A stretch of 28,518 bases of DNA, from positions 1 to 28,518 of IMG/VR virus record IMGVR_UViG_3300045136_000075; one strand, 5' to 3'. Of the stretch, positions 560 to 15,071 are shown piece by piece. The notes below the pieces were generated by a model. It was not told the origin of the DNA. It was given only the letters and a program-made list of their open reading frames with translations, and did no database searches. The stretch comes from a virus. Within the stretch, counting starts at the first letter, position 1, and every line of letters starts with the position of its first letter. The translations under genes were made by a program, and so were the position numbers.

Positions 560-3500
560 TCAGGCTCCGGCCAGTAGCGTCCGCACTGCCGAGGCGTTGC
601 GGCCGATGACGTTCAGGAGCACGCGCTCTCCGGCAGGCGAATCCATCCAGTCTGCAGCCATGCGCGGATCGACCACGTTGACCACGCGCACCGACTGGCT
701 CACCGACGGCTGCGCGACCTGCGGCACCATACCGCCGGAGGCGAATGCCAGACGCCCGGCGTCGATGCGCGGCAGCCACGCGCCGCCATTGATCGCGTCG
801 AGCAGGCCGCGGCCGATGCGTTGCGCCACGTCGCGCCGGATGACGTACTCGCCCGGTGTGAGCATCGCCGGCACCGTGTCGCGCGTGCCGCTGCCGGGCA
901 CCGGGCCGCCCGACGAGAATCCGAAGAACTTCAGCGCGCCCGCGATGAACGATTGCGCCCCACCGCCCTTGGGTCCGAAGATCGCCTCCGCGAGATTCTG
1001 CGCGGCGATGCGGTTGATGCCCGCGACGACCGAGCGGACGAAGTCGGCGAATGCCTGCCGCGCGGTCTTCGCGCCGCTGCCCACCGCCTCGAACATCGAG
1101 GCGAAAGCGTCCTTGATCTGCGTGCCGATGGCCGCGGCGAGCGGATCGACGACATCGCGCACACTCGCGAGCTCGTTTTTCCACGCCTGCACGCGGGCCA
1201 CAGCCTCCCGCCCGATCGTCTGTGCGGCCCGCTCCATCAGCGGCAGCAACTGTTGCATCTCCTGCGCCGCCTGTCGGTGTGCGTCGGCGATCGCCTGCTG
1301 CGCCTGAGCAGTGCTGATCAGGCCCTGCTCGCGCTGGATGGCGGCGGATTGCTCTGCGCTGCGCATCGTCTCCAGCGCAAGACGCCAGCGCGACTCAAGC
1401 GCCGTCAGATCCGCCTCCGCGGCCTTGATGTCGATGAGCCGCCGCGCGAGTTGCGCGCCCTCTGCGTCTTGGGCGAGTCGATCCACGGTATCGCGCAGCG
1501 CGCGCTCAACCGCCGCGCGCCGCATCTCCGGCGTGTCGGTGCCCTCGGCCTTGGCGATCGCGAGCTTGGCGTCCTCCACCGCGTCGCGGATCTCGCGCAG
1601 CGCTTTGGCGCGATCGATCTCGAGCCGGAACTTGGCAGCCACCTCGCGGCCGTTCAGCGCATCGAGCTCGGCGCGTAGCGCGGCGGCCTTGATGCGCGCG
1701 TCGTTGAGCCTGTCGGCGATCTCGGCACGCTGGTTGGCATCCTTGGGCTTGGCGCTGGATAGACGTGCAATCAGGTCTTCTTGCGCGGCGAGCTCGCGCG
1801 AGAGTTTGTCCCGCTCGACTGAAAAGGCACGGTCATCGATCGCCGCCTTGGCGCGCCAGAAGTCCTCGACCTTGATCAGGCGTGCTGCGAGCGCCGTCTC
1901 GACCACATCCGCTTGCGCCTTGAGCGCGGCTTGAAGGGCCTGCAAATCGTCCTCGAGCGGCCTGCGCAACGTTGGCAAGCGTGATTCGCCCGCGAGCGCC
2001 TTGCGCACGAGCGCCTCGGCCTCACGGAATCTCGGCGAGTCCAACGGGATCGCGGCACGCTCGGCCTGCTCGCGCAGCTCGCGCAGCGCCTCGCCGAGCG
2101 GATCGACCTTGCGGCGGAACTGCTCGAGGAACTTGTCGAAGGACTTCCCGAGCAGCTCCTTGCCGAGTTCCGTCGGCCCTGAGCCTCCGGTCAGCACTTC
2201 CTTCTGCTTGCGCTCGATGTCGACCAGCGCGGCCTCGTACCGCTTCAGTTTCTGCTGGTTGGCCTCGATCGCGCGCAACAGCGCGCTCGATCCGCTTTGG
2301 CCGAGCTCCTCGTTCAGTTCGTCCTGCACGCGCTTCAGCCGCTCGATTTCCTCGCGCAGGGCGGCCGCGTCTCCGCTGCCGAACCGCTGCTCGCGGTCCA
2401 TCCGGCGCAGCACCTCTTCGGCCGCCTCGGCACTGCGTCGCGCGCGTTCGCCAGCGGATTCTGCGTTGCTGCCCCACAGCGCCCAGGCCGTGGCGCCCAT
2501 GCTGAGCAGGGTCAGGATGGCACCAAGCGGACCGCCGAGGAATCCCAACGCCACGGACACGCCGCGCGCGACGGCCCCGCCGGCGGCCATCGTCGCGTTG
2601 AGTTGGGCCTGCGCGGCGGCCAGGCGCTGCTGGGCCGGCACGAGCTCGGTCTGCACGACGGACAGCCGCGCCATGCCGGTCGCCGCGGCCACCGCAGCCT
2701 GCGCGGACGCGACCATCGCCTGCGCCTTGGCCACCTCGTGAGCGGCGAGCGCCTGCGCCGCGATGATGGCCTGCCGGTCCGCCGCGATCTTGGCGAACAT
2801 CTGCTGCGCGTATGCCACCGCCGCCTGCCCGCCGCGCACCATGGCCGCTGTGAGCGCGCCGATGGCCGCCACCGCCGCAGTGCCGATCACCGCATCGATG
2901 TTGCGCGCCAGCGCATCGAATGCCTGCGCGACCGACCGCGTGGCGCCGACCGATTGATTCATCCGGTCGACTGTTCTGGCGAACTCATCGCGCACCTGCG
3001 ACAGCGCCTGCCCGATGGTGCGCGGCATGGCCGCGGCCTCGCGCTGCAAGGCGTCGCGCTGCGAGTCGAGCGCGCGGGTGATGACGTCCGTCGTCAGCAG
3101 CCCCTGCTCTGCGAGCTCGCGCAGGCGGCCAACGGGCAAGCCCAAGCCGTCGGCCAGCGCCTTCGCCAGGCGGCCGCCGTTTTCCATGATTGAGTTGAAC
3201 TCGTCGCCGCGCAGCACTCCGGAGCCCAGCGCCTGCGAAAACTGCCGCACCACCGACGCCGCCTCCGCGGCCGATGCGCCGGAGACCTTCAGCGCCAGCG
3301 CGGTGGCCTCCGTGGTCCTGGCGATCTGCTCCTGCGACAGCCCGAAGCTGCTGGCTGCTTGCGCCAGGCGGGCGTAGAGCGTTGCCACCGCCTCAAAACC
3401 CGCGCCGGTCTGCGCCGCCACCCGATAGGCGAACCTCTGAGCCTCGGCGAACTCGCGCGCCCCGCTGACGGCGAGCTTCAGTCGCGCGTTGACCTGTTGC

Positions 3501-3694
3501 ACCTGGTCGGCCAGCTGGGCCAGCGCCGACACGCCTGTGGACAGGCCCATTGCGCCCTGGAAGGCCAGGAAAGCGTCTCGCGCCTGTCGAAGCTGCCGGG
3601 AGACGGATTCCAGACCGTCGCGCGCCTTGCCGATGACTGGTGAGGCGCTATCCTTGGCTGTGATGACGATCTGGAGTGCGGTGGAGGCGGCCAT
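560..3694 (-). CDS. Tail tape measure protein
   Basis: This 1044-residue protein is the longest in the window and sets tail length in siphoviruses while chaperoning tube assembly. Residues about 70-215 match the tape measure N-terminal domain (for example SGVLRGDEFNSIMENGGRL at 158-176). Two hydrophobic stretches near residues 265-290 and 375-410 are as expected for a tape measure, and long charged helical or coiled-coil segments fill about 410-850. The C-terminal part has the glycine-rich segment and the PAMLTPGEYVIRRDVA motif common at tape measure ends. At roughly 0.15 nm per residue the tail would be near 155 nm, an estimate only. It starts with ATG at 3694 after the chaperone genes, and its first codon overlaps the start of an opposite-strand gene. 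Confidence 0.95.
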   Translation of the reverse strand: MAASTALQIVITAKDSASPVIGKARDGLESVSRQLRQARDAFLAFQGAMGLSTGVSALAQLADQVQQVNARLKLAVSGAREFAEAQRFAYRVAAQTGAGFEAVATLYARLAQAASSFGLSQEQIARTTEATALALKVSGASAAEAASVVRQFSQALGSGVLRGDEFNSIMENGGRLAKALADGLGLPVGRLRELAEQGLLTTDVITRALDSQRDALQREAAAMPRTIGQALSQVRDEFARTVDRMNQSVGATRSVAQAFDALARNIDAVIGTAAVAAIGALTAAMVRGGQAAVAYAQQMFAKIAADRQAIIAAQALAAHEVAKAQAMVASAQAAVAAATGMARLSVVQTELVPAQQRLAAAQAQLNATMAAGGAVARGVSVALGFLGGPLGAILTLLSMGATAWALWGSNAESAGERARRSAEAAEEVLRRMDREQRFGSGDAAALREEIERLKRVQDELNEELGQSGSSALLRAIEANQQKLKRYEAALVDIERKQKEVLTGGSGPTELGKELLGKSFDKFLEQFRRKVDPLGEALRELREQAERAAIPLDSPRFREAEALVRKALAGESRLPTLRRPLEDDLQALQAALKAQADVVETALAARLIKVEDFWRAKAAIDDRAFSVERDKLSRELAAQEDLIARLSSAKPKDANQRAEIADRLNDARIKAAALRAELDALNGREVAAKFRLEIDRAKALREIRDAVEDAKLAIAKAEGTDTPEMRRAAVERALRDTVDRLAQDAEGAQLARRLIDIKAAEADLTALESRWRLALETMRSAEQSAAIQREQGLISTAQAQQAIADAHRQAAQEMQQLLPLMERAAQTIGREAVARVQAWKNELASVRDVVDPLAAAIGTQIKDAFASMFEAVGSGAKTARQAFADFVRSVVAGINRIAAQNLAEAIFGPKGGGAQSFIAGALKFFGFSSGGPVPGSGTRDTVPAMLTPGEYVIRRDVAQRIGRGLLDAINGGAWLPRIDAGRLAFASGGMVPQVAQPSVSQSVRVVNVVDPRMAADWMDSPAGERVLLNVIGRNASAVRTLLAGA

Positions 3695-3872
3695 GTTCTG
3701 CCTGTTGCGCCGGTTCCTGTTCTACGTGTGCGCCATGGCTGGCGCGGTCGTTCTGTTTCTGCTGCTTTTGAGCGGGCACTGGTTGGGATACTGGCTCGCT
3801 GCGGTGTTTTTCGTCGCGGCAGGCGCGGAGGCGTGGAAGCGCCGCATGCAATGGACCGGCCTCATCCGCTGA
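3693..3872 (+). CDS. Small two-helix membrane protein on the opposite strand
   Basis: This 59-residue frame runs against all surrounding genes. It has a good ribosome site (GGAGG, five bases before ATG 3693) that lies inside the start of the tape measure gene. The protein has a short basic start (LLRRF), hydrophobic helices at about residues 8-27 and 30-45, and a basic tail (WKRRMQW). It fills the otherwise empty 167-bp gap between the chaperone stop at 3862 and the tape measure start at 3694, and converges on the chaperone extension with a short overlap. I do not recognise the family. It could be a moron-type envelope protein expressed in the lysogen. Chance is possible for a frame this short, but the ribosome site, basic-hydrophobic-basic pattern and exact fit to the gap argue for a gene. 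Confidence 0.6.
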   Translation: MFCLLRRFLFYVCAMAGAVVLFLLLLSGHWLGYWLAAVFFVAAGAEAWKRRMQWTGLIR

Positions 3873-4376
3873 CTTGCTTCACCCACCGTTCCCAGTCGGT
3901 CTTGTCCGCCTGCGCCGCGCGCGCGGCGATCGCCTGCTCGAGTATGCGGCGGCGGCGCACCGTCTGTGCCGCGGTGGCGAAGTCGCGCGCCAGCGTCCAC
4001 GGCATCTCCATTACTTCGCCGTAGCCGAACCCTGCGTCGACGAGTCCGGCGACCCACTCGTGCCACCAGAGGCGGCCTGCGCCATCCGCTGCGCCGACGC
4101 GGTGACGATCGGCAGCACCCGCCGCAGAAAAAAATCCGCGTTGACCTCCAGCACGCGGGCGGCCAGCGTGGCGAGCACGTCGGGCGTCTGCTCCTCCAGC
4201 CACGCGCGCTCCACACCGGCGCCGATCGCCGTGGCCTCGATCAGCCCGTCGGCGTGCCGCATCATCGCGGCGGCCAGATCGCCCGCGGCGAGCTCGGCGG
4301 CGATCGGCTCGATCGCGCGCAGAAACCGCGGCAGGTCGCGCACACGCACCGGTTCGATGCGATCCAGATCCATCAC
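3862..4376 (-). CDS. Tail assembly chaperone, frameshifted (GT-type) form
   Basis: Minus-1 slippage at 4134-4128 would join the first 83 residues of the short chaperone to an 88-residue extension in another frame, giving 171 residues. The extension begins SAAGAADRHR and contains RLWWHEWVAGLVDAGFGYG and an EMPWTLARDF segment, ending TDWERWVKQVSG. It looks like a real conserved protein but has no start codon or ribosome site of its own near the junction. This matches the lambda G/GT scheme, in which the T part binds tube protein and the G part binds tape measure. The feature spans the interrupted coding path; the reading frame changes at the heptamer. Confidence 0.78.
4011..4376 (-). CDS. Tail assembly chaperone, short (G-type) form
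   Basis: This 121-residue, mostly helical protein lies two genes before the tape measure, where siphoviruses carry their G/GT chaperone pair. ATG 4376 overlaps the stop of the fibre-like gene (ATGA). Its last residues are low-complexity (ASGGTSGSPDSSTQGS), typical of a read-out tail rather than a folded end. Codons 82-83 sit in a run of seven T residues that can shift ribosomes into the minus-1 frame and make the longer product. The family role is to coat the tape measure protein and recruit tube subunits. The assignment rests on position, size and the frameshift arrangement more than on sequence motifs. Confidence 0.8.
   Translation of the reverse strand: MMDLDRIEPVRVRDLPRFLRAIEPIAAELAAGDLAAAMMRHADGLIEATAIGAGVERAWLEEQTPDVLATLAARVLEVNADFFLRRVLPIVTASAQRMAQAASGGTSGSPDSSTQGSATAK
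4128..4134 (-). promoter_or_regulatory. Minus-1 ribosomal frameshift site, T_TTT_TTT
   Basis: On the minus strand the zero-frame codons are GAT TTT TTT CTG, so the heptamer T TTT TTT has the X XXY YYZ phasing for tandem minus-1 slippage by two Phe tRNAs. The shifted frame reads on for 88 codons, while the zero frame ends 38 codons later. The GC-rich sequence just after it (CTGCGGCGGG onward) can form short stems, but I cannot fold it properly. Seven T residues in a row are conspicuous in DNA this GC-rich. Confidence 0.8.
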
Positions 4377-5074: not shown

Positions 5075-5722
5075 ATCACCTCCGCCGCTCGGTGCGGCCT
5101 TGACCGATACGGCTGTGGCCGTCCAACCGACAGCCGCATCTGATGTCCACGTGAAGACCTGATTCCCGGCCGTCGCCCGTTGCACGTATGACATGCCGAA
5201 GGCGTCGGACGACGCGCCAACGCCCTCGAATTTGGCGATCAGCGTCTGTTGCGCGCCCGGCGCGAGAGTGTTACCGAGATGGCAACAGGCATCGATCAGC
5301 AGTGCGCCATCTGACAGCGACGTAATCGAATGGCTGGCGGGGTTACCAGACTGGTCGCCGGCGCCGTTTGAAGCCTCGATCGAATCGGCGCCAAACAGCG
5401 AGATCGCGGCGCCAACGGCAAAGTCACTAATCGGACCCGCCAACGTCACCGCGATTTGTGCAGTGCCGCTCGGCGGGTCAAACAAAGCCCAGAGTTCGGT
5501 TCGCTTGTACGCATTAGCCGTGCCGTCGTCGCTGCGCCATTTGATCAGCGCCTGGCCACCATAGGTGATGTCTGTCACGACGGCGTTCGCCGGCGTGGAA
5601 TTCCGCGTGCCGACGCCGACGATCAGCGCGCGATCAATGCCGCTGCCGACCGTGTGGTTCCAGGCCAAACTGCTGCCGCTTGTTACGACTGCGGATTGCG
5701 ACGTTGAGTCGATCGATATCAC
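4373..5722 (-). CDS. Fibre-like tail appendage protein with recruited beta-sandwich domain
   Basis: This 449-residue protein starts at GTG 5722, overlapping the upstream HTH gene stop (GTGA). Residues 1 to about 212 form a Ser/Thr/Ala-rich domain with patterns such as LAWNHTVGSGIDRALIVGV, TYGGQAL and ELWALFDPPSGTAQIAVTL. I recognise this as a beta-sandwich type that recurs in bacterial surface and phage proteins, but know no specific function for it. The rest begins MAIIQFKRGTRAQID, a start typical of phage fibre or appendage proteins, and ends in a second beta-rich region. The position between tail tube and chaperone is unusual for a fibre. It may be a side appendage or receptor-binding component. 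An internal start may also produce the C-terminal part alone. Confidence 0.7.
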   Translation of the reverse strand: MISIDSTSQSAVVTSGSSLAWNHTVGSGIDRALIVGVGTRNSTPANAVVTDITYGGQALIKWRSDDGTANAYKRTELWALFDPPSGTAQIAVTLAGPISDFAVGAAISLFGADSIEASNGAGDQSGNPASHSITSLSDGALLIDACCHLGNTLAPGAQQTLIAKFEGVGASSDAFGMSYVQRATAGNQVFTWTSDAAVGWTATAVSVKAAPSGGGDMAIIQFKRGTRAQIDSAASASQLRVAEPYLLTDEGRMALGLSVSSYADLMMRSLDQPTCWPIRTANPKIAGDINGTALSTITVTASRQYWIPLVVARKIMLTGLRISVTTAATGLASVGLYSNRVVSGSDEPGELLASATGLDTGTTGDKTGTVSYTLQPGTLYWASVICAAAAVLRALAVGSVQPALGRTVNNTTMITHLYASGSGSTLASPAPATFTAGTGVVPAIYLVGS

Positions 5723-11015: not shown

Positions 11016-11480
11016 TCAGGCGGCGCGCTCGGCGGCGCGCGCGGCGGTGAGGATGTCGACTCCCGGGTGCTGCGCCTGATAGGCGCGGGCGCGGCTCCAC
11101 AGATCCAGCCCGCGCTCCGACAGGCGATAGCCGTGCGGCAGACGCGGCGGCGGCGGCGCGTCGGCGGCGGCCGGGCCGGCGCGTTCGGCCATCTCCACGC
11201 GCGCCGGCAGGCGCGCCAGGAAGCCGCGCAGGACGTCCAGCGCGGGTTGAGCGCCGCCCTCGGCCAACGTGACGGCCTCGGCCTGTGCCAGGCGCTCCAT
11301 CACCGCCACGAGCGACGCGCATTCGGCCGGCAGCACACGGCCGGCGCGTACGTGGGCGTCGAGCTCGGCGGCATAGGCGGCGCGCGCCAGCTCGCGCTCG
11401 CGCGCGGCGATGGCGGCCTCGCGCTCGGCGAGCCGCCGCTCGCGTTCGGCGGCGGCCACGGAGGGGTCGGTCTCACTCAT
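11016..11480 (-). CDS. Nested scaffold protein (Mu Z type)
   Basis: An in-frame ATG at 11480 inside the protease gene is preceded by AAGGAGCAAAGC, a near-perfect ribosome site with six-base spacing. The 154-residue product begins MSETDPSVAAAERERRL and is strongly helical and charged (REAAIAARERELARAAYAAE), then Pro-rich around PPPPRLPHGYR. In Mu, gene Z is encoded the same way inside gene I and provides internal scaffold. The same arrangement here is well supported by the ribosome site and the change in composition at this point. Confidence 0.85.
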   Translation of the reverse strand: MSETDPSVAAAERERRLAEREAAIAARERELARAAYAAELDAHVRAGRVLPAECASLVAVMERLAQAEAVTLAEGGAQPALDVLRGFLARLPARVEMAERAGPAAADAPPPPRLPHGYRLSERGLDLWSRARAYQAQHPGVDILTAARAAERAA

Positions 11481-12062
11481 GCTTTGCTCCTTCGGGTTGC
11501 GGTGCTGCACGCGCTCGCGCAGCGTCACGGTTACGATCTGGCCATCGGCCACGGCGGCCAGTTGCACAGGCGCCAGGCCCTTGACGGCCGGCGCTGCCGC
11601 GCCCAAGAAGCCCAGATGCTTCAGCGCCCAGACGCCCGGCGTCGGATTGCCCGGCGCATCCGGCGTCCACAGGGCCACCGATACGGCCTGATAGCGGCGG
11701 CTGCGCACGAGGTCGGCCATCTCCGGCAGCAGCTCGACATCCAGCCACAGCCCGTCGGCCTGCGCCGACGCTCCGAGAACCCAGCCCCATGCCGGGTCGT
11801 CGGTCTCCGGGTGCCCAATCACCACAGGCGCCCGGTAGCGCGCCGGATCGTAGGCGCTGGCGGTCGCCGCGATGTCCTCCGGCGTGACGGTCAAGTCGAC
11901 CGGGTCGGCCGGCCAGGTGCCCGGGGCCAGTGCGTGGATGCGCGCAGGCACGAGATCAGGCGTGGGCAAGCGGGCCGCGTGCTGCGCGGCCTGCTCGGCG
12001 GCCATGGACGGATGCGAGTACACGCCGGCATCGTGCATGCGCCGGCCGGCGCGGTTAAGCAC
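11016..12062 (-). CDS. Prohead protease with scaffold domain (Mu protein I type)
   Basis: This 348-residue protein has an N-terminal Mu I-like protease domain (about 25-165) and a C-terminal helical scaffold (about 195-348). Seen motifs are YRAPVVIGHPETDDPAWGWV at 76-95 and RRYQAVSVALW at 122-132. By comparison with assemblin-like proteases, H84 and S128 are candidate catalytic residues, an inference. The start is uncertain: GTG 12062 is the most upstream option after an in-frame TAG but has no clear ribosome site; ATG 12038 is an alternative. It would mature the prohead by removing scaffold. A nested start makes the scaffold alone. Confidence 0.87.
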   Translation of the reverse strand: MLNRAGRRMHDAGVYSHPSMAAEQAAQHAARLPTPDLVPARIHALAPGTWPADPVDLTVTPEDIAATASAYDPARYRAPVVIGHPETDDPAWGWVLGASAQADGLWLDVELLPEMADLVRSRRYQAVSVALWTPDAPGNPTPGVWALKHLGFLGAAAPAVKGLAPVQLAAVADGQIVTVTLRERVQHRNPKEQSMSETDPSVAAAERERRLAEREAAIAARERELARAAYAAELDAHVRAGRVLPAECASLVAVMERLAQAEAVTLAEGGAQPALDVLRGFLARLPARVEMAERAGPAAADAPPPPRLPHGYRLSERGLDLWSRARAYQAQHPGVDILTAARAAERAA

Positions 12063-12265
12063 GACGGGCGTCGCGGCACGTTTGGGGCCGGGCCGCTAGA
12101 ACGGCCTAGGAGCGATTTTGCGGGGCGGGTGGCATCCGAGTACCAACCGCGCACCGATCGCGGCTCAGCGGCCCGTCCAAACCGTTTGCAAATGGGGTCT
12201 GGTGGCGGCGCGAAGCGCTGTCCGATGCCCCGGTCTGGCCGTGGGCGGTCGCGGCGCGGACGCCG
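12063..12265. other. 203-bp noncoding gap before the protease gene
   Basis: There is no convincing gene in this gap between the HTH gene of the regulatory cassette and the protease. A short inverted repeat (GGCCG at 12091-12095 and CGGCC at 12102-12106) could form a weak hairpin but lacks a T-run. The 12-mer ATTTGCAAACGG on the minus strand at 12179-12190 also occurs on the plus strand at 28199-28210 near the phage end. No sigma70-like promoter stands out. It may hold the return to late transcription after the cassette. Confidence 0.5.
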
Positions 12266-12484
12266 TCACTCGGCCGCCCGTAATTTGGGCGCGAGCGCAT
12301 CGAGCTGCGCTGCGCGCTCCTGCGTGATGCGCAGCAGATCGAGCCATACGCCAGAGGGCACGCGCTGCGCGCCAGCGATCCATCTGCGGACCGTCCGGTC
12401 CGATACTCCCAGCTCGCGCGCGAGCTCGCATTGCCAGCGAGGCCCGTACAGGGCCTCGCCGCACTCGACGAGTAGGCGGCTCAT
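12266..12484 (-). CDS. Small HTH DNA-binding protein
   Basis: This 72-residue protein starts at ATG 12484, overlapping the KorA-like gene stop (ATGA). It contains a helix-turn-helix at about residues 17-37 (WQCELARELGVSDRTVRRWI) followed by AGAQRVPSGVWLDLLRIT and a C-terminal helix. It resembles small Cro-like or XRE proteins common in phages of GC-rich bacteria. As the last gene of a three-gene cassette with a palindromic promoter, it is a candidate for the factor that binds that palindrome, alongside the KorA-like protein. Confidence 0.8.
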   Translation of the reverse strand: MSRLLVECGEALYGPRWQCELARELGVSDRTVRRWIAGAQRVPSGVWLDLLRITQERAAQLDALAPKLRAAE

Positions 12485-12762
12485 GTCAATGAGCGATCAG
12501 CGCGCCGCACGCGCGCGACCGCATTACTTACGGCTTGAGGAGACAGCCCGATCCTCCGGGATGCCTCGCTTGGCCGCAGGCCGTCCACGAGGACGAGCCT
12601 TGCGGCCTCCTCAGCCGCGCCGCGCCTCATGCGGATGAGGCGGGCGATGGCGGCGAATCTTTTCGGCTGCATTCTCTGTCCGCTAATCGGCTTCGCACCC
12701 ATCCTCATTGACACGGATTCCGTCGTCATCACGTCACTTTCGGCTCCTGCCTCATGCGTCAT
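12481..12762 (-). CDS. KorA/TrfB-like DNA-binding protein
   Basis: The C-terminal half of this 93-residue protein reads AEEAARLVLVDGLRPSEASR followed by RIGLSPQAVSNAVARVRRA. This matches the helix-turn-helix core of TrfB/KorA-type regulators, whose plasmid member KorA has ARGVLVDG...A..LGLTRGAVSQAVHRVW. KorA represses plasmid replication, partition and transfer promoters by binding palindromes. The C-terminal dimer and corepressor domain of KorA is missing; only the DNA-binding part is here. Starts are possible at 12762, 12729, 12708 and 12672; I chose 12762, which overlaps the upstream stop. It lies inside the head-gene block, where a regulator is not expected. Confidence 0.75.
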   Translation of the reverse strand: MTHEAGAESDVMTTESVSMRMGAKPISGQRMQPKRFAAIARLIRMRRGAAEEAARLVLVDGLRPSEASRRIGLSPQAVSNAVARVRRADRSLT

Positions 12763-12991
12763 GCGTGATGTCAACGGCCCACGGGCCGTAGACGTCGCCG
12801 ACCGCGATTTCGCGACCGTCCGAGGCGGCGTAGACGTCCACCTCGTTGTCGTTGGCGGCGCGCAGGATGACCTCCGCGCCCTCAAGCTCCGCGCCGGGGG
12901 CGAAGCCTTCCCCGGCGTCGTTCCCTCTCTGCCAGCGCTCGACGGCGGCCTGCATCGCGTCATTGCGGCTGTAGTAACTACTGATTCGCAT
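12752..12991 (-). CDS. Unknown acidic protein, first gene of the regulatory cassette
   Basis: This 79-residue protein begins MRISSYYSRNDAMQAAVERW and ends AVGDVYGPWAVDITHDA. It is acidic with no recognised domain. ATG 12991 has a strong ribosome site (GGAGGACAAG); an ATG four codons upstream (13003) has a similar one (AGGACAAG), because the short sequence AGGACAAGATG is repeated. The leader from the predicted promoter is about 60 bases. Its place in front of two DNA-binding proteins suggests a partner or modulator, but this is speculation. Confidence 0.7.
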   Translation of the reverse strand: MRISSYYSRNDAMQAAVERWQRGNDAGEGFAPGAELEGAEVILRAANDNEVDVYAASDGREIAVGDVYGPWAVDITHDA

Positions 12992-13063
12992 CTTGTCCTC
13001 CATCTTGTCCTATCCCTGACTCCCCGGGGCGCGGTGGACAGCACCGTGCTGTCCATGTCGCAC

Positions 13064-13091
13064 ACTATACACGCCTACGCGTGTATGTCAA
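13064..13091 (-). promoter_or_regulatory. Sigma70 promoter with palindromic operator for the KorA-like cassette
   Basis: On the minus strand, TTGACA (13091-13086) and TATAGT (13069-13064) are 16 bases apart, a near-consensus sigma70 promoter. A perfect inverted repeat, ATACACGC-CTAC-GCGTGTAT at 13067-13086 on the plus strand, occupies the spacer and touches both boxes. A dimeric protein bound there would block RNA polymerase. Transcription would start near 13057 and read the three small genes down to 12266. Confidence 0.82.
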
Positions 13092-13171
13092 GTGGGCAAG
13101 CGATGCAATGTTTCTATCGTTTCCGCGCGCGCAATTGCCTTTTCGTATCGAGGAACGCCCTAGCGGCCGTC

Positions 13172-13723
13172 TCACGGCCCGTCCGCCAGATGCGCGCGGA
13201 TGGCGTCGAGGATCAGCGAGCGTGCGGCGTCGTCCAGCTGGCCACCCTCCCGGATGGGCAGGTAGCGCCGGGCGGGGATGTCGCCCCATGGGATGGGCGC
13301 GCCACGGCGGGTGCGGCCGAACTGGCCCTTGCGCGCACCGAACTGTTGCGTGGCGGCGTATGCGAGGCTCGATCCGACCTCCACGCCGCGCGGGATGAGC
13401 CTGTAAGCGATCTCGGAGGACAGCCGCCGGGTCTCGCCGATGAGGGGTTTCTTCGCGGCGGCCCGCGCCTGCCCGCGCTTCGTGAGCCCCCCGCCACGCC
13501 GGAACGAGCCGCCGAATCGTGAAAGATAGCGCAGCACCGTGACGGGGCTGTTGGGCATCCAAGGGGTGCCATCGGGCGCGCGGCCCGTGGCGAAGCGCCG
13601 TTGGGTCGATGCGACCAGCAGCTCGCCGATGTCGCGCAGCGCCGGGGCGGGATCCTGTACGCGCCGAAGGAGCTCGCCCAGGGCGGCGCGCACCGCCTGG
13701 TCGTCGATTTCAATGCGGATCAA
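13172..13723 (-). CDS. Phage virion morphogenesis protein (Mu G type)
   Basis: This 183-residue protein begins MIRIEIDDQAVRAALGELLR and has the conserved ASTQRRFATGRAPDGTPWMP motif at about 38-57 and RRYLPIREG near residue 160. These mark the phage virion morphogenesis (Mu gpG) family, associated with tail completion and head-tail joining. The start is TTG 13723, preceded by AGGA. It follows gp30 after a 61-base gap that contains a small perfect hairpin (CGTGGT-CAT-ACCACG, 13765-13779). Immediately downstream lies the promoter of the regulatory cassette. Confidence 0.9.
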   Translation of the reverse strand: MIRIEIDDQAVRAALGELLRRVQDPAPALRDIGELLVASTQRRFATGRAPDGTPWMPNSPVTVLRYLSRFGGSFRRGGGLTKRGQARAAAKKPLIGETRRLSSEIAYRLIPRGVEVGSSLAYAATQQFGARKGQFGRTRRGAPIPWGDIPARRYLPIREGGQLDDAARSLILDAIRAHLADGP

Positions 13724-13784
13724 GTGCTATCCTCATGCCTGCGTGGCCGGGTGCATCCCGTCGTCGTGGTCATACCACGAAGCG

Positions 13785-15071
13785 TTACGGACGTCTGATG
13801 GGGGGACGGCCACGTATCCACAGCGTTTGCAGCGCGAGCATGCGGCGCCTTGCACGCACCTCGAACGCGGCCCAGTACTCCAGATCGCCGAAGCGCTTGA
13901 CGAGGCGCACCACGGGACGACCTATACCAGACGTGCCTCCGTATTCGAGGCGGTCCGCCTCGGCAATGAGGCGTGGCAACAACGCATAGTCCTCGACCGT
14001 GACGCCGGTCTGTCCCGACCTGGCTTCCGCCGCATCGTCGCCGTGATCCTTGGCCACCTTGCGCACGGTCGACGCATCGATCGTCCAGTCATAGATCTGG
14101 CTGCGCACCGCTTCGACCCCCGTCATATCGGCGATCGCGCGCGCTTCGGCCTGCGTGAGCAGCCCAAGCGTCTGATACTGCTGCACGATGACCGGCCCCG
14201 GAATCGCGGCGTCGTTGCGCACGCCGAGCGCGCGCTCGGCGTAACGGCGCGCCGCCTCGGCGGTACCCGGCAAGCGGCGGATTGCCAGGGCAAGCGCATC
14301 GCGCATGCGCTCCGGCACTTCGCTCATGTACGCCTTGGCCATCTCATAGGGCCAGGCGATGGTCTTGGCGGCCACGGCACGCGCGACTTCGTCGGCCACC
14401 GCCGCCCCCGGCATATATCCCCATCCGCGGTCGACGCCCGCCGGCTCGCCGTTCGGTCCGCTCTCCAGCCAGGTCGGATCGAGCGGCTTGTCTGGATTGC
14501 CGCCAATCAACCTCGCGCCGGCCGGGCCGTTGGCTCCGACCACACTGCACCGGCACCCCCAGCCATTGGGCGGATAGTGCGTCTGCCAGAACGGATGATC
14601 GGCCGGCAGCGTGAGACCGTCCCAGGCCAGGTGCAGAGGCCGCGGATGCAGCACCGAGTCCGAATGCCGGTACACCCACAGCGCAAAGCCGCCCCGCTTG
14701 AGCTGCGCAAGCCGCCCGGCGGCGTAGCTCGTGGCGGCATTCGTCGTGTAGATCACGCGCGTGCGCCAGTTGCGCGGGCCGCGGTAGGACCAGCCGTGGC
14801 GGTCGACGATGGCGTCGAACTGCGCGCGGAACCAGTCAATGCCCCTGCCGTCGGCGATCGCACCATCGACGGCGCTCGCCAGGTCCGCGAGTAGATCGGC
14901 CTTGGCCGCGCCGGCCACCATGAAGGCGCGGTCGTGGGCTGCCTTCCAGATGTCATCCCAGCGCTCGGTGGGCACCAGATTGCCCAGCTTGCCGCGGAAG
15001 AAGGCGAGCTGCTCGTCGAAGGGCCGACGGAATACGCCGGCGACGGCCGGATCATCGGTGGATGCGCTCAT
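13785..15071 (-). CDS. F-like minor head protein (gp30/SPP1 gp7 type) with C-terminal extra domain
   Basis: This 428-residue protein has the F-like / SPP1 gp7 head morphogenesis fold in its first half, with the hallmark HLAWDGLTLPADHPFWQTHY and PPNGWGCRC at about 147-175. Such proteins bind the portal and ride in the prohead. From about residue 340 onward there is a different domain: KDHGDDAAEARSGQTGVTVE, DYALLPRLI, then two beta strands with FEVRARRRMLALQTLW. I recognise this as resembling the phage-encoded Barnase/EndoU/RelE-like (PBECR) domains attached to phage head proteins. That suggests a possible RNase delivered or released with the virion. The domain call is moderate. ATG 15071 overlaps the zinc-finger gene by 20 bases. 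Confidence 0.88.
   Translation of the reverse strand: MSASTDDPAVAGVFRRPFDEQLAFFRGKLGNLVPTERWDDIWKAAHDRAFMVAGAAKADLLADLASAVDGAIADGRGIDWFRAQFDAIVDRHGWSYRGPRNWRTRVIYTTNAATSYAAGRLAQLKRGGFALWVYRHSDSVLHPRPLHLAWDGLTLPADHPFWQTHYPPNGWGCRCSVVGANGPAGARLIGGNPDKPLDPTWLESGPNGEPAGVDRGWGYMPGAAVADEVARAVAAKTIAWPYEMAKAYMSEVPERMRDALALAIRRLPGTAEAARRYAERALGVRNDAAIPGPVIVQQYQTLGLLTQAEARAIADMTGVEAVRSQIYDWTIDASTVRKVAKDHGDDAAEARSGQTGVTVEDYALLPRLIAEADRLEYGGTSGIGRPVVRLVKRFGDLEYWAAFEVRARRRMLALQTLWIRGRPPIRRP

Follow-up and report, generated by a model that had tools for sequence, protein, structure and literature searches.

The window, that is, the complete 28,518-nt viral stretch analyzed here, carries a cassette of three small genes, the best reading of which, and in our judgment a probable one, is an operon (moron) of the acr-aca counter-defence type that belongs to a Mu-like phage and encodes a KorA/Aca4-like repressor. 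This reading is suggested by the anatomy of the cassette, the homology of its products, its position, its absence from sister phages, the sharing of cargo genes across different regulators, and the conservation of its leader.

Genomic context and gene organization

The record is a 28.5-kb virus contig with Mu transposase, MuB, and MuF-like genes (Pfam). In this Mu-like phage, the cassette lies on the minus strand and is flanked by a gpG-like gene and the gene of the head maturation protease. The gpG-like gene on the left flank (13172..13723, minus strand) matches Pfam Phage_tail_S with 79.4 bits and phrog_26, and the protease gene on the right flank (11016..12062, minus strand) matches phrog_976 (E 6e-62) and no Pfam family. 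A preceding sequence-only reading had described a trio of small genes separating gpG from the protease gene, the first encoding an acidic protein to which it gave no role; the ORF calls bear this out, with both flanks as named there. ORF A (12752..13003, minus strand) encodes an acidic protein of 83 aa (pI 4.2) that is a candidate counter-defence cargo. ORF B (12481..12672, minus strand) encodes a KorA/Aca4-like HTH protein (pI 12) of 63 aa as counted from the family-conserved start, with longer in-frame starts upstream of 12672, and ORF C (12266..12484, minus strand) encodes a YdaS-like HTH protein of 72 aa (pI 8.9), which would be a second Aca-like regulator. The overlap of these genes claimed earlier holds for ORF B and ORF C, which share ATGA, but overlap of ORF A and ORF B requires an upstream in-frame ATG as the ORF B start; the family-conserved start lies 79 nt past the ORF A stop. 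Judged by their spacing, ORFs A to C appear to form one operon, in which a small cargo gene is followed by a small HTH gene, as in acr-aca operons.

Two further features of this region were observed. At its C-terminus, the MuF-like protein (13785-15071, minus strand) has a domain of the PBECR3 nuclease-like type (Pfam, 46.7 bits vs. a cut-off of 30), possibly a toxin-type domain on a head protein. By eye, the stretch that separates gpG from the protease gene shows inverted repeats of the GGTGGC type in several relatives (L009, L011, and L012) and in the window (about 12100-12160).

Distribution among related phages

A protein search with gpG retrieved 49 viral loci. In the two closest ones, L003 and L004 (gpG 87% and 81% identical, respectively), the flanks match the window at 95-99% and the cassette is absent, as a comparison of related phages proposed in the sequence-only reading has now established. 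The DNA match to L003 breaks at window position 13259, in the last 29 gpG codons, and resumes at 12280, in the last 5 ORF C codons; the stretch without a DNA counterpart (12281..13258; 978 nt vs. 68 nt in L003) comprises the cassette and a diverged gpG tail. The L003 tail is diverged rather than missing, since the protein match runs to gpG residue 179. By these comparisons, the cassette is an accessory, insertion-type element, whether through gain here or through loss in the sister phages.

The gap between gpG and the protease gene was sought in 46 of the 49 loci plus L225 and estimated in 35 loci (plus L225), two having too little DNA and nine no protease match; the estimates range from an overlap up to 2.6 kb, and the larger gaps hold other genes. 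For instance, the gap of L033 (about 1120-3260) holds a set of three genes encoding proteins of 325, 248, and 103 aa, which by eye resembles what we take to be a TcmP/DUF5131-type set. The earlier premise that late head genes are continuous here is correct for L003 and L004, where the gap is 233 and 225 nt, respectively; it fails for the loci with gaps of up to 2.6 kb and is also at odds with published Mu-like phages of Pseudomonas. In these, according to PMC4704812, the acr genes sit between the gpG homologue and that of the protease/scaffold, preceded by a promoter-like sequence and followed by an HTH gene.

Promoter and spacer palindrome

The sigma-70-type promoter TTGACA-N16-TATAGT (13064..13091, minus strand) agrees with the consensus at 11 of 12 positions and is the sole promoter-like site within 11500-14000, where shuffled sequences average 0.3; the near-consensus promoter proposed from the sequence is thus real. 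Promoters of the same type are found in the same place in L002 and L021/L060. The spacer is filled by the palindrome IR1, ATACACGC-N4-GCGTGTAT (13067..13086), an exact 8+8 repeat, as had been described. A search of the 28.5-kb record found a single copy; with up to 3 mismatches allowed, one site was found against 0.11 expected. IR1 is probably the operator of the KorA-like protein encoded by ORF B. By sequence, the cassette has a promoter of its own, the core of which encloses an inverted repeat, the arrangement that PMC9410906 reports in every one of ten Aca promoter sets studied. Support is found for the original view of the cassette as an accessory unit that has a promoter and a KorA-type HTH gene of its own.

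Alternatively, the promoter could serve chiefly for late transcription of the head protease gene, like P_I of Mu, with the small genes as passengers. Promoter-like sequences do lie just before the protease gene in cassette-free relatives, such as L020 and L007 (by eye). However, the window site is near-consensus for sigma-70 and is followed by genes that likely encode repressors, whereas L003 and L004 are without the stretch yet keep the protease gene; we consider this explanation highly improbable.

The KorA/Aca4-like regulator and its operator class

ORF B scores 23.5 bits against Pfam KORA, under the gathering cut-off of 26.7, and a profile of four ORF B relatives matches TrfB/KorA in the PDB with E of 7e-4. 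The structure predicted for ORF B (pLDDT 96.3) has KorA chains as its best 14 PDB matches (TMq 0.73-0.84), followed slightly below by ArdK; the Foldseek E-values for the KorA chains are weak (0.014-0.065, with no match at E 0.001), as may be expected for 63 residues. On this model, ORF B has the KorA HTH fold, so that the KorA/TrfB HTH core recognized earlier from the sequence is upheld by the fold and by the profile of relatives, although the Pfam score stays below its cut-off. The predicted structure ends with the fourth helix, at residue 63, without the C-terminal dimerisation domain of KorA. Between the window and L002, 36 of the 63 codons of the ORF B gene differ, 21 of them silently.

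A search with four KorA-like proteins found 23 viral loci, and one with twelve such proteins found three genome contigs, from Stutzerimonas stutzeri, Pseudomonas indoloxydans, and an Azoarcus MAG (L249); a tblastn search with the window protein against annotated phages and plasmids gave no match at E 0.01. Several distant KorA-like proteins in bacterial genomes adjoin ordinary genes, a point that speaks against the acr-aca reading. We also observed a separate conserved KorA-like family (REAVWLMEVEGMTGYFAAQQMDIS...) in bacterial genomes (L274, L275, L278-L281), the neighbours of which seem to be ordinary chromosomal genes.

With up to 2 mismatches allowed, the motif TACAC-N8-GTGTA was found in the 900 nt preceding 8 of 24 KorA-like genes, against 2.47 expected from shuffles, in a set of rows that includes near-duplicates (e.g., L228/L229 and L226/L231) and one row, L236 (=L096), that was originally found via the promoter pattern and is thus biased. 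Seven of the eight sites sit in promoters (window, L224, L228, L229, L230, L236, and L248), the exception being L237. As a control, the same 900 nt were searched upstream of 15 leader copies (see below) around which a profile search found no KorA-like gene, the downstream DNA searched being only 587 and 198 nt for L254 and L265, respectively; a single copy had the motif, away from its leader, and within 160 nt there was none in all 15. The motif was absent upstream of the other 16 KorA-like genes, and L225, which has cargo and a KorA-like gene, shows no recognisable promoter or leader from gpG to the cargo; both observations count against the acr-aca reading and mean that the link between this operator and KorA-like proteins holds for a subgroup only. 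Taken over all 24 KorA-like genes, upstream sites of this class are nevertheless more frequent than expected, and related, more diverged spacer palindromes are seen by eye in L240, L233, and L244. The promoter pattern TTGACATACAC-N8-GTGTA was also tried as a probe in viral contigs and rejected, as its 54 stretches were mostly generic; the leader hairpin of the window was seen by eye in only three of them, L002, L060 (the L021 contig), and L096.

The sequence-only reading had assigned the KorA-type protein a possible role in the control of other phage genes, resident plasmids, or immunity. Such a global regulatory cassette would be in line with the KorA fold and with the match to ArdK, a related plasmid regulator. 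The palindrome, however, is present once in the record; the KorA operator, which we take to be GTTTAGCTAAAC, has 0 matches in the record with up to 2 mismatches; the C-terminal dimer domain is missing; and the site in relatives lies in the promoter of the cassette itself. The suggested control of plasmids or other phage genes is thus not supported, and we regard a global role as very unlikely.

In 3 of the 23 viral KorA-like loci (L227-L229), the KorA-like gene, the product of which is 60-61% identical to the window protein, lies just downstream of a homologue of AcrIF11, so that the regulator family is found beside a proven Acr family. The AcrIF11 scores (NCBIfam cut-off of 50) are 113.5 bits in L228, 111.7 in L229, and 56.3 in L227, where the homologue is a piece at the contig end; the L228 homologue matches PDB 6kyf with E of 2.4e-54. 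The NCBIfam search covered the ORF upstream of the KorA-like gene in 19 of the 23 loci, the remainder having no upstream DNA (L232 and L235) or no clear small ORF (L233 and L234), and in 16 of the 19 it gave no family above cut-off. AcrIF11 is therefore, as judged by sequence homology, the only recognised function among KorA-linked cargos; its presence in only 3 of the 19 searched ORFs is a counterpoint to the acr-aca reading. Relatives of AcrIF11 occur in 7 phage records with 31-37% identity.

A second HTH family

ORF C scores 27.8 bits against Pfam YdaS_toxin, under the gathering cut-off of 30, and matches uncharacterised phage families. Of 33 viral loci with relatives of ORF C, all but L292, where the match starts 29 bases from the end, were examined (32 loci); these rows include near-duplicates (e.g., L288/L289). 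In 17 of the 32 loci the preceding ORF overlaps the ORF C relative by 4 nt, an arrangement that the window shares with Acidovorax phage Aval, and in most others it lies within 80 nt; in L317 and L318 no upstream ORF was found. The preceding ORFs are small and diverse, which is the pattern of a second Aca-like HTH family, as far as sequence tells, trailing diverse small genes. The Acidovorax phage Aval locus (L105, about 3560-4260) has an ORF C homologue without its own annotated gene, and the palindrome TGTCCTAA-AA-TTAGGACA lies there near a possible promoter, upstream of the gene that precedes this homologue.

ORF A and the sharing of cargo genes

ORF A has no match in Pfam, PHROGs, NCBIfam, or PADLOC, and hence no homologue among known Acr proteins in these collections, and its fold prediction is poor (pLDDT 56.9); both facts weigh against the acr-aca reading. 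Acr proteins have few homologues, as stated in PMC4704812, so the lack of a match does not exclude an Acr function. A scan of viral contigs found one relative of ORF A (42-44% identical), in L250. Upstream of it, a palindrome forms the spacer of a promoter-like sequence, and the gene that follows encodes an XRE-like HTH protein (HTH_31 and HTH_3 above cut-off), so members of the ORF A family have different partners, a KorA-like gene in the window and an XRE-like HTH gene in L250.

We clustered 69 cargo entries drawn from KorA-linked, ORF C-linked, leader-linked, and L250 operons, with near-duplicates such as L288/L289 kept, into about 53 clusters (blastp, E below 1e-4), an approximate number because the uncertain ORFs C_L302_84 and C_L315_48 and a 194-aa frame of the window itself were included. 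Four clusters bridge different kinds of operons: the window and L250; L243 (KorA-like) and L305 (ORF C-type); L224 and L225 (KorA-like) and L263 (leader, no KorA-like gene); and L288 and L289 (ORF C-type) and L259 (leader). In known systems, too, one acr family may go with different aca genes, according to PMC9410906. By analogy with acr-aca operons, ORF A is likely the cargo and the HTH proteins are likely the repressors. We consider it fairly likely that ORF A counters some host defence; that it acts against CRISPR-Cas in particular is plausible, at somewhat less than an even chance.

Two alternatives bear on the nature of the cargo. In a toxin-antitoxin system, ORF A would be the toxin and ORF B and/or ORF C an autorepressing antitoxin, serving prophage upkeep or phage exclusion. 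The resemblance of ORF C to YdaS_toxin and the matches of HTH proteins from related operons to MqsA_antitoxin, all of them below cut-off, fit this idea, and a toxin-first order with autorepression is a feature shared with acr-aca operons, as noted in PMC9410906. It is rendered improbable by the high diversity of cargo genes among the clusters, by the identity of one cargo set as AcrIF11, and by the existence of near-identical phages without the cassette. The other alternative is a general, autoregulated accessory operon with cargo for superinfection exclusion, host takeover, or physiology. It would account for the many unrelated small proteins that accompany the leader and both HTH families, for the lack of a family above cut-off among all searched cargos but AcrIF11, and for the presence of other cargo in the gap between gpG and the protease gene, such as the L033 set; but the only recognised function of a KorA-linked cargo is anti-CRISPR, and the location is the classical acr place (PMC4704812), so that we hold this alternative to be rather unlikely.

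A structured leader

The least expected part of the cassette is its leader, which comprises two elements absent from the sequence-only description. A perfect dyad (13035..13055, minus strand) near the presumed 5' end of the transcript is predicted to form a 9-bp hairpin with the loop CGG, and next to it lies a conserved, start-associated block, CGCGCCCCGGGGAGTCAGGG (13014..13033, minus strand), present in one copy in the window. The block consensus before start codons is GCGCCYCGGGG-N(1-4)-TCAGGGG. A search with the pattern GCCYCGGGGRRTCAGGGG gave 16 viral stretches; an ATG follows within 30 nt in 15 of them, and in 11 a promoter-like site (at least 9 of 12) lies no more than 120 nt upstream. 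Probable chance matches (L252 and L261, best promoter scores 6 and 7) and a doubtful one (L255, 7) were dropped, L262 was not counted because its sequence, as far as read, is the same as that of L258, and L251 and L253 were retained, though some of their copies have no hairpin and a low promoter score (6). The block repeats before successive small genes in L253 (three copies) and L259 (two); these copies, at minus-strand positions 5687, 5951, and 6195 in L253 and 5185 and 5443 in L259, have unrelated or missing hairpins. Leader operons include a KorA-like gene in L002, L042/L256, and the window and another HTH gene in L251 and L253; in others no regulator was seen.

The hairpin is often located just upstream of the block and its stem varies by locus, e.g., GGACAGCA/TGCTGTCC, CATCAGC/GCTGATG, and CCGGTC/GACCGG. 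Stems of at least 5 bp are present in 12 of 17 leaders and missing from five; tested singly, only 7 of the 17 reach p below 0.05, and the claim of a hairpin is accordingly drawn from a pooled test rather than from single leaders. In that test the summed stem score of 19 leaders was 136.5 vs. 88.7 (sd 8.4) for shuffled sequences, a score reached by 0 of 500 shuffles and, after removal of three related rows, by 0 of 300. Pairing in register was 95/105, compared with 23/90, 12/75, and 22/90 in slid controls, a contrast that is partly circular because the stems were chosen as best stems. The pooled excess of stems with differing sequences fits an RNA structure better than a DNA site for a specific protein. 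We rejected the idea of a leader peptide encoded from the ATG within the dyad, as its reading frame is not kept in L042/L256 (by eye). In L251, a tRNA-like stretch (about 560-640, by eye) takes the place in the leader where others have the hairpin; ARAGORN called no tRNA in this stretch.

A longer leader pattern occurred in 3 of 399 genomes of one order and its reversed control in none; one of the three, L284, was left out of later counts, as no gene start was seen nearby by eye. An Rfam search with 501 bases of the window and one L259 stretch found no leader family, all matches being far below gathering scores (E at least 0.45). Literature searches on KorA/Aca, Aca4/AcrIF11, Aca2 RNA stem-loops, and start-associated sequences, with most subscription papers outside their scope, found no description of the leader.

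The closest printed idea is that of the start-associated repeats SAS/ESAS of cluster K mycobacteriophages, the function of which is left open in PMC3203893. The leader shares with them a short block before starts, an inverted repeat upstream in a subset, and several copies per phage region, but differs in its sequence, in the phages that carry it, and in being part, in some cases, of repressor-controlled cargo operons. The 13-bp SAS/ESAS consensus GGGATAGGAGCCC was not found in the leader, the likeness being limited to the surroundings of the ribosome-binding site (by eye). Aca2 offers another comparison, as a 2024 study reportedly found it to bind both DNA and mRNA stem-loops. The window likewise combines an inverted repeat in the promoter with a stem-loop in the leader; however, the hairpin sequence differs between loci, which makes a common sequence-specific binder less likely.

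Proposed function and relation to known systems

In the proposed model, the strong promoter (13091-13064) would drive a short mRNA on infection and, at a basal level, in the lysogen. The 5' hairpin of this mRNA, together with the conserved block, would help to set the translation of ORF A, the cargo, which is most likely a small acidic inhibitor of host defence with CRISPR-Cas as the first candidate target. The Aca4-type product of ORF B, probably as a dimer, would then bind the spacer palindrome and shut the operon down once accumulated, as we infer from the position of the palindrome and its association with KorA-like genes across relatives. ORF C would contribute a second Aca-like HTH protein, perhaps derived from another such operon, that is redundant or acts at another site.

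The cassette resembles the Aca1-type acr-aca operons in its place, upstream promoter, small variable cargo, and downstream small HTH gene. It differs from them in the KorA/Aca4-type regulator, the second HTH gene, and the hairpin-plus-block leader, as well as in a cargo without a homologue of known function. Three of twelve Acas match KORA, DUF1870, and YdaS_antitoxin (PMC9765179, section 12). Aca4 of Pseudomonas (67 aa) carries Pfam KORA and TrfB 2W7N matches in PMC9410906; ORF B is similar in size, in its KORA/TrfB resemblance, and in its place after the cargo, and some of its relatives follow AcrIF11, so that its putative kinship to Aca4 (WP_071533911.1 / ABR13385.1) is drawn from the shared KORA match and AcrIF11 neighbourhood. 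Aca4 was found only in Pseudomonas species in PMC9410906, whereas one relative of ORF B is in the Azoarcus MAG. With KorA/TrfB of RK2 and ArdK of R388, ORF B shares the fold of the HTH DNA-binding domain, but it has no C-terminal dimer domain, a different operator, and a place in a phage cargo operon.

More tentatively, and with doubt prevailing, phages could draw counter-defence genes from a common pool whose mark is the hairpin-plus-block leader, acting as a mobile RNA control element. A cargo gene would then change partners among Aca regulators of the KorA, YdaS, and XRE types and yet retain, or acquire, this structured start signal, and the hairpin, kept for its structure rather than its sequence, would tune early translation of the cargo.

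Altogether, the results point to an anti-CRISPR-type operon at the classical acr place, with a cargo family, that of ORF A, that is directly testable. The leader opens the SAS/ESAS question, i.e., the role of start-associated repeats, to testing in a second group of phages. Together with the two HTH families, it provides three handles for counter-defence genes, which are poorly conserved and otherwise hard to find, and, if it is indeed mobile, new anti-CRISPR and anti-defence genes could be sought by means of it, whatever their regulator.
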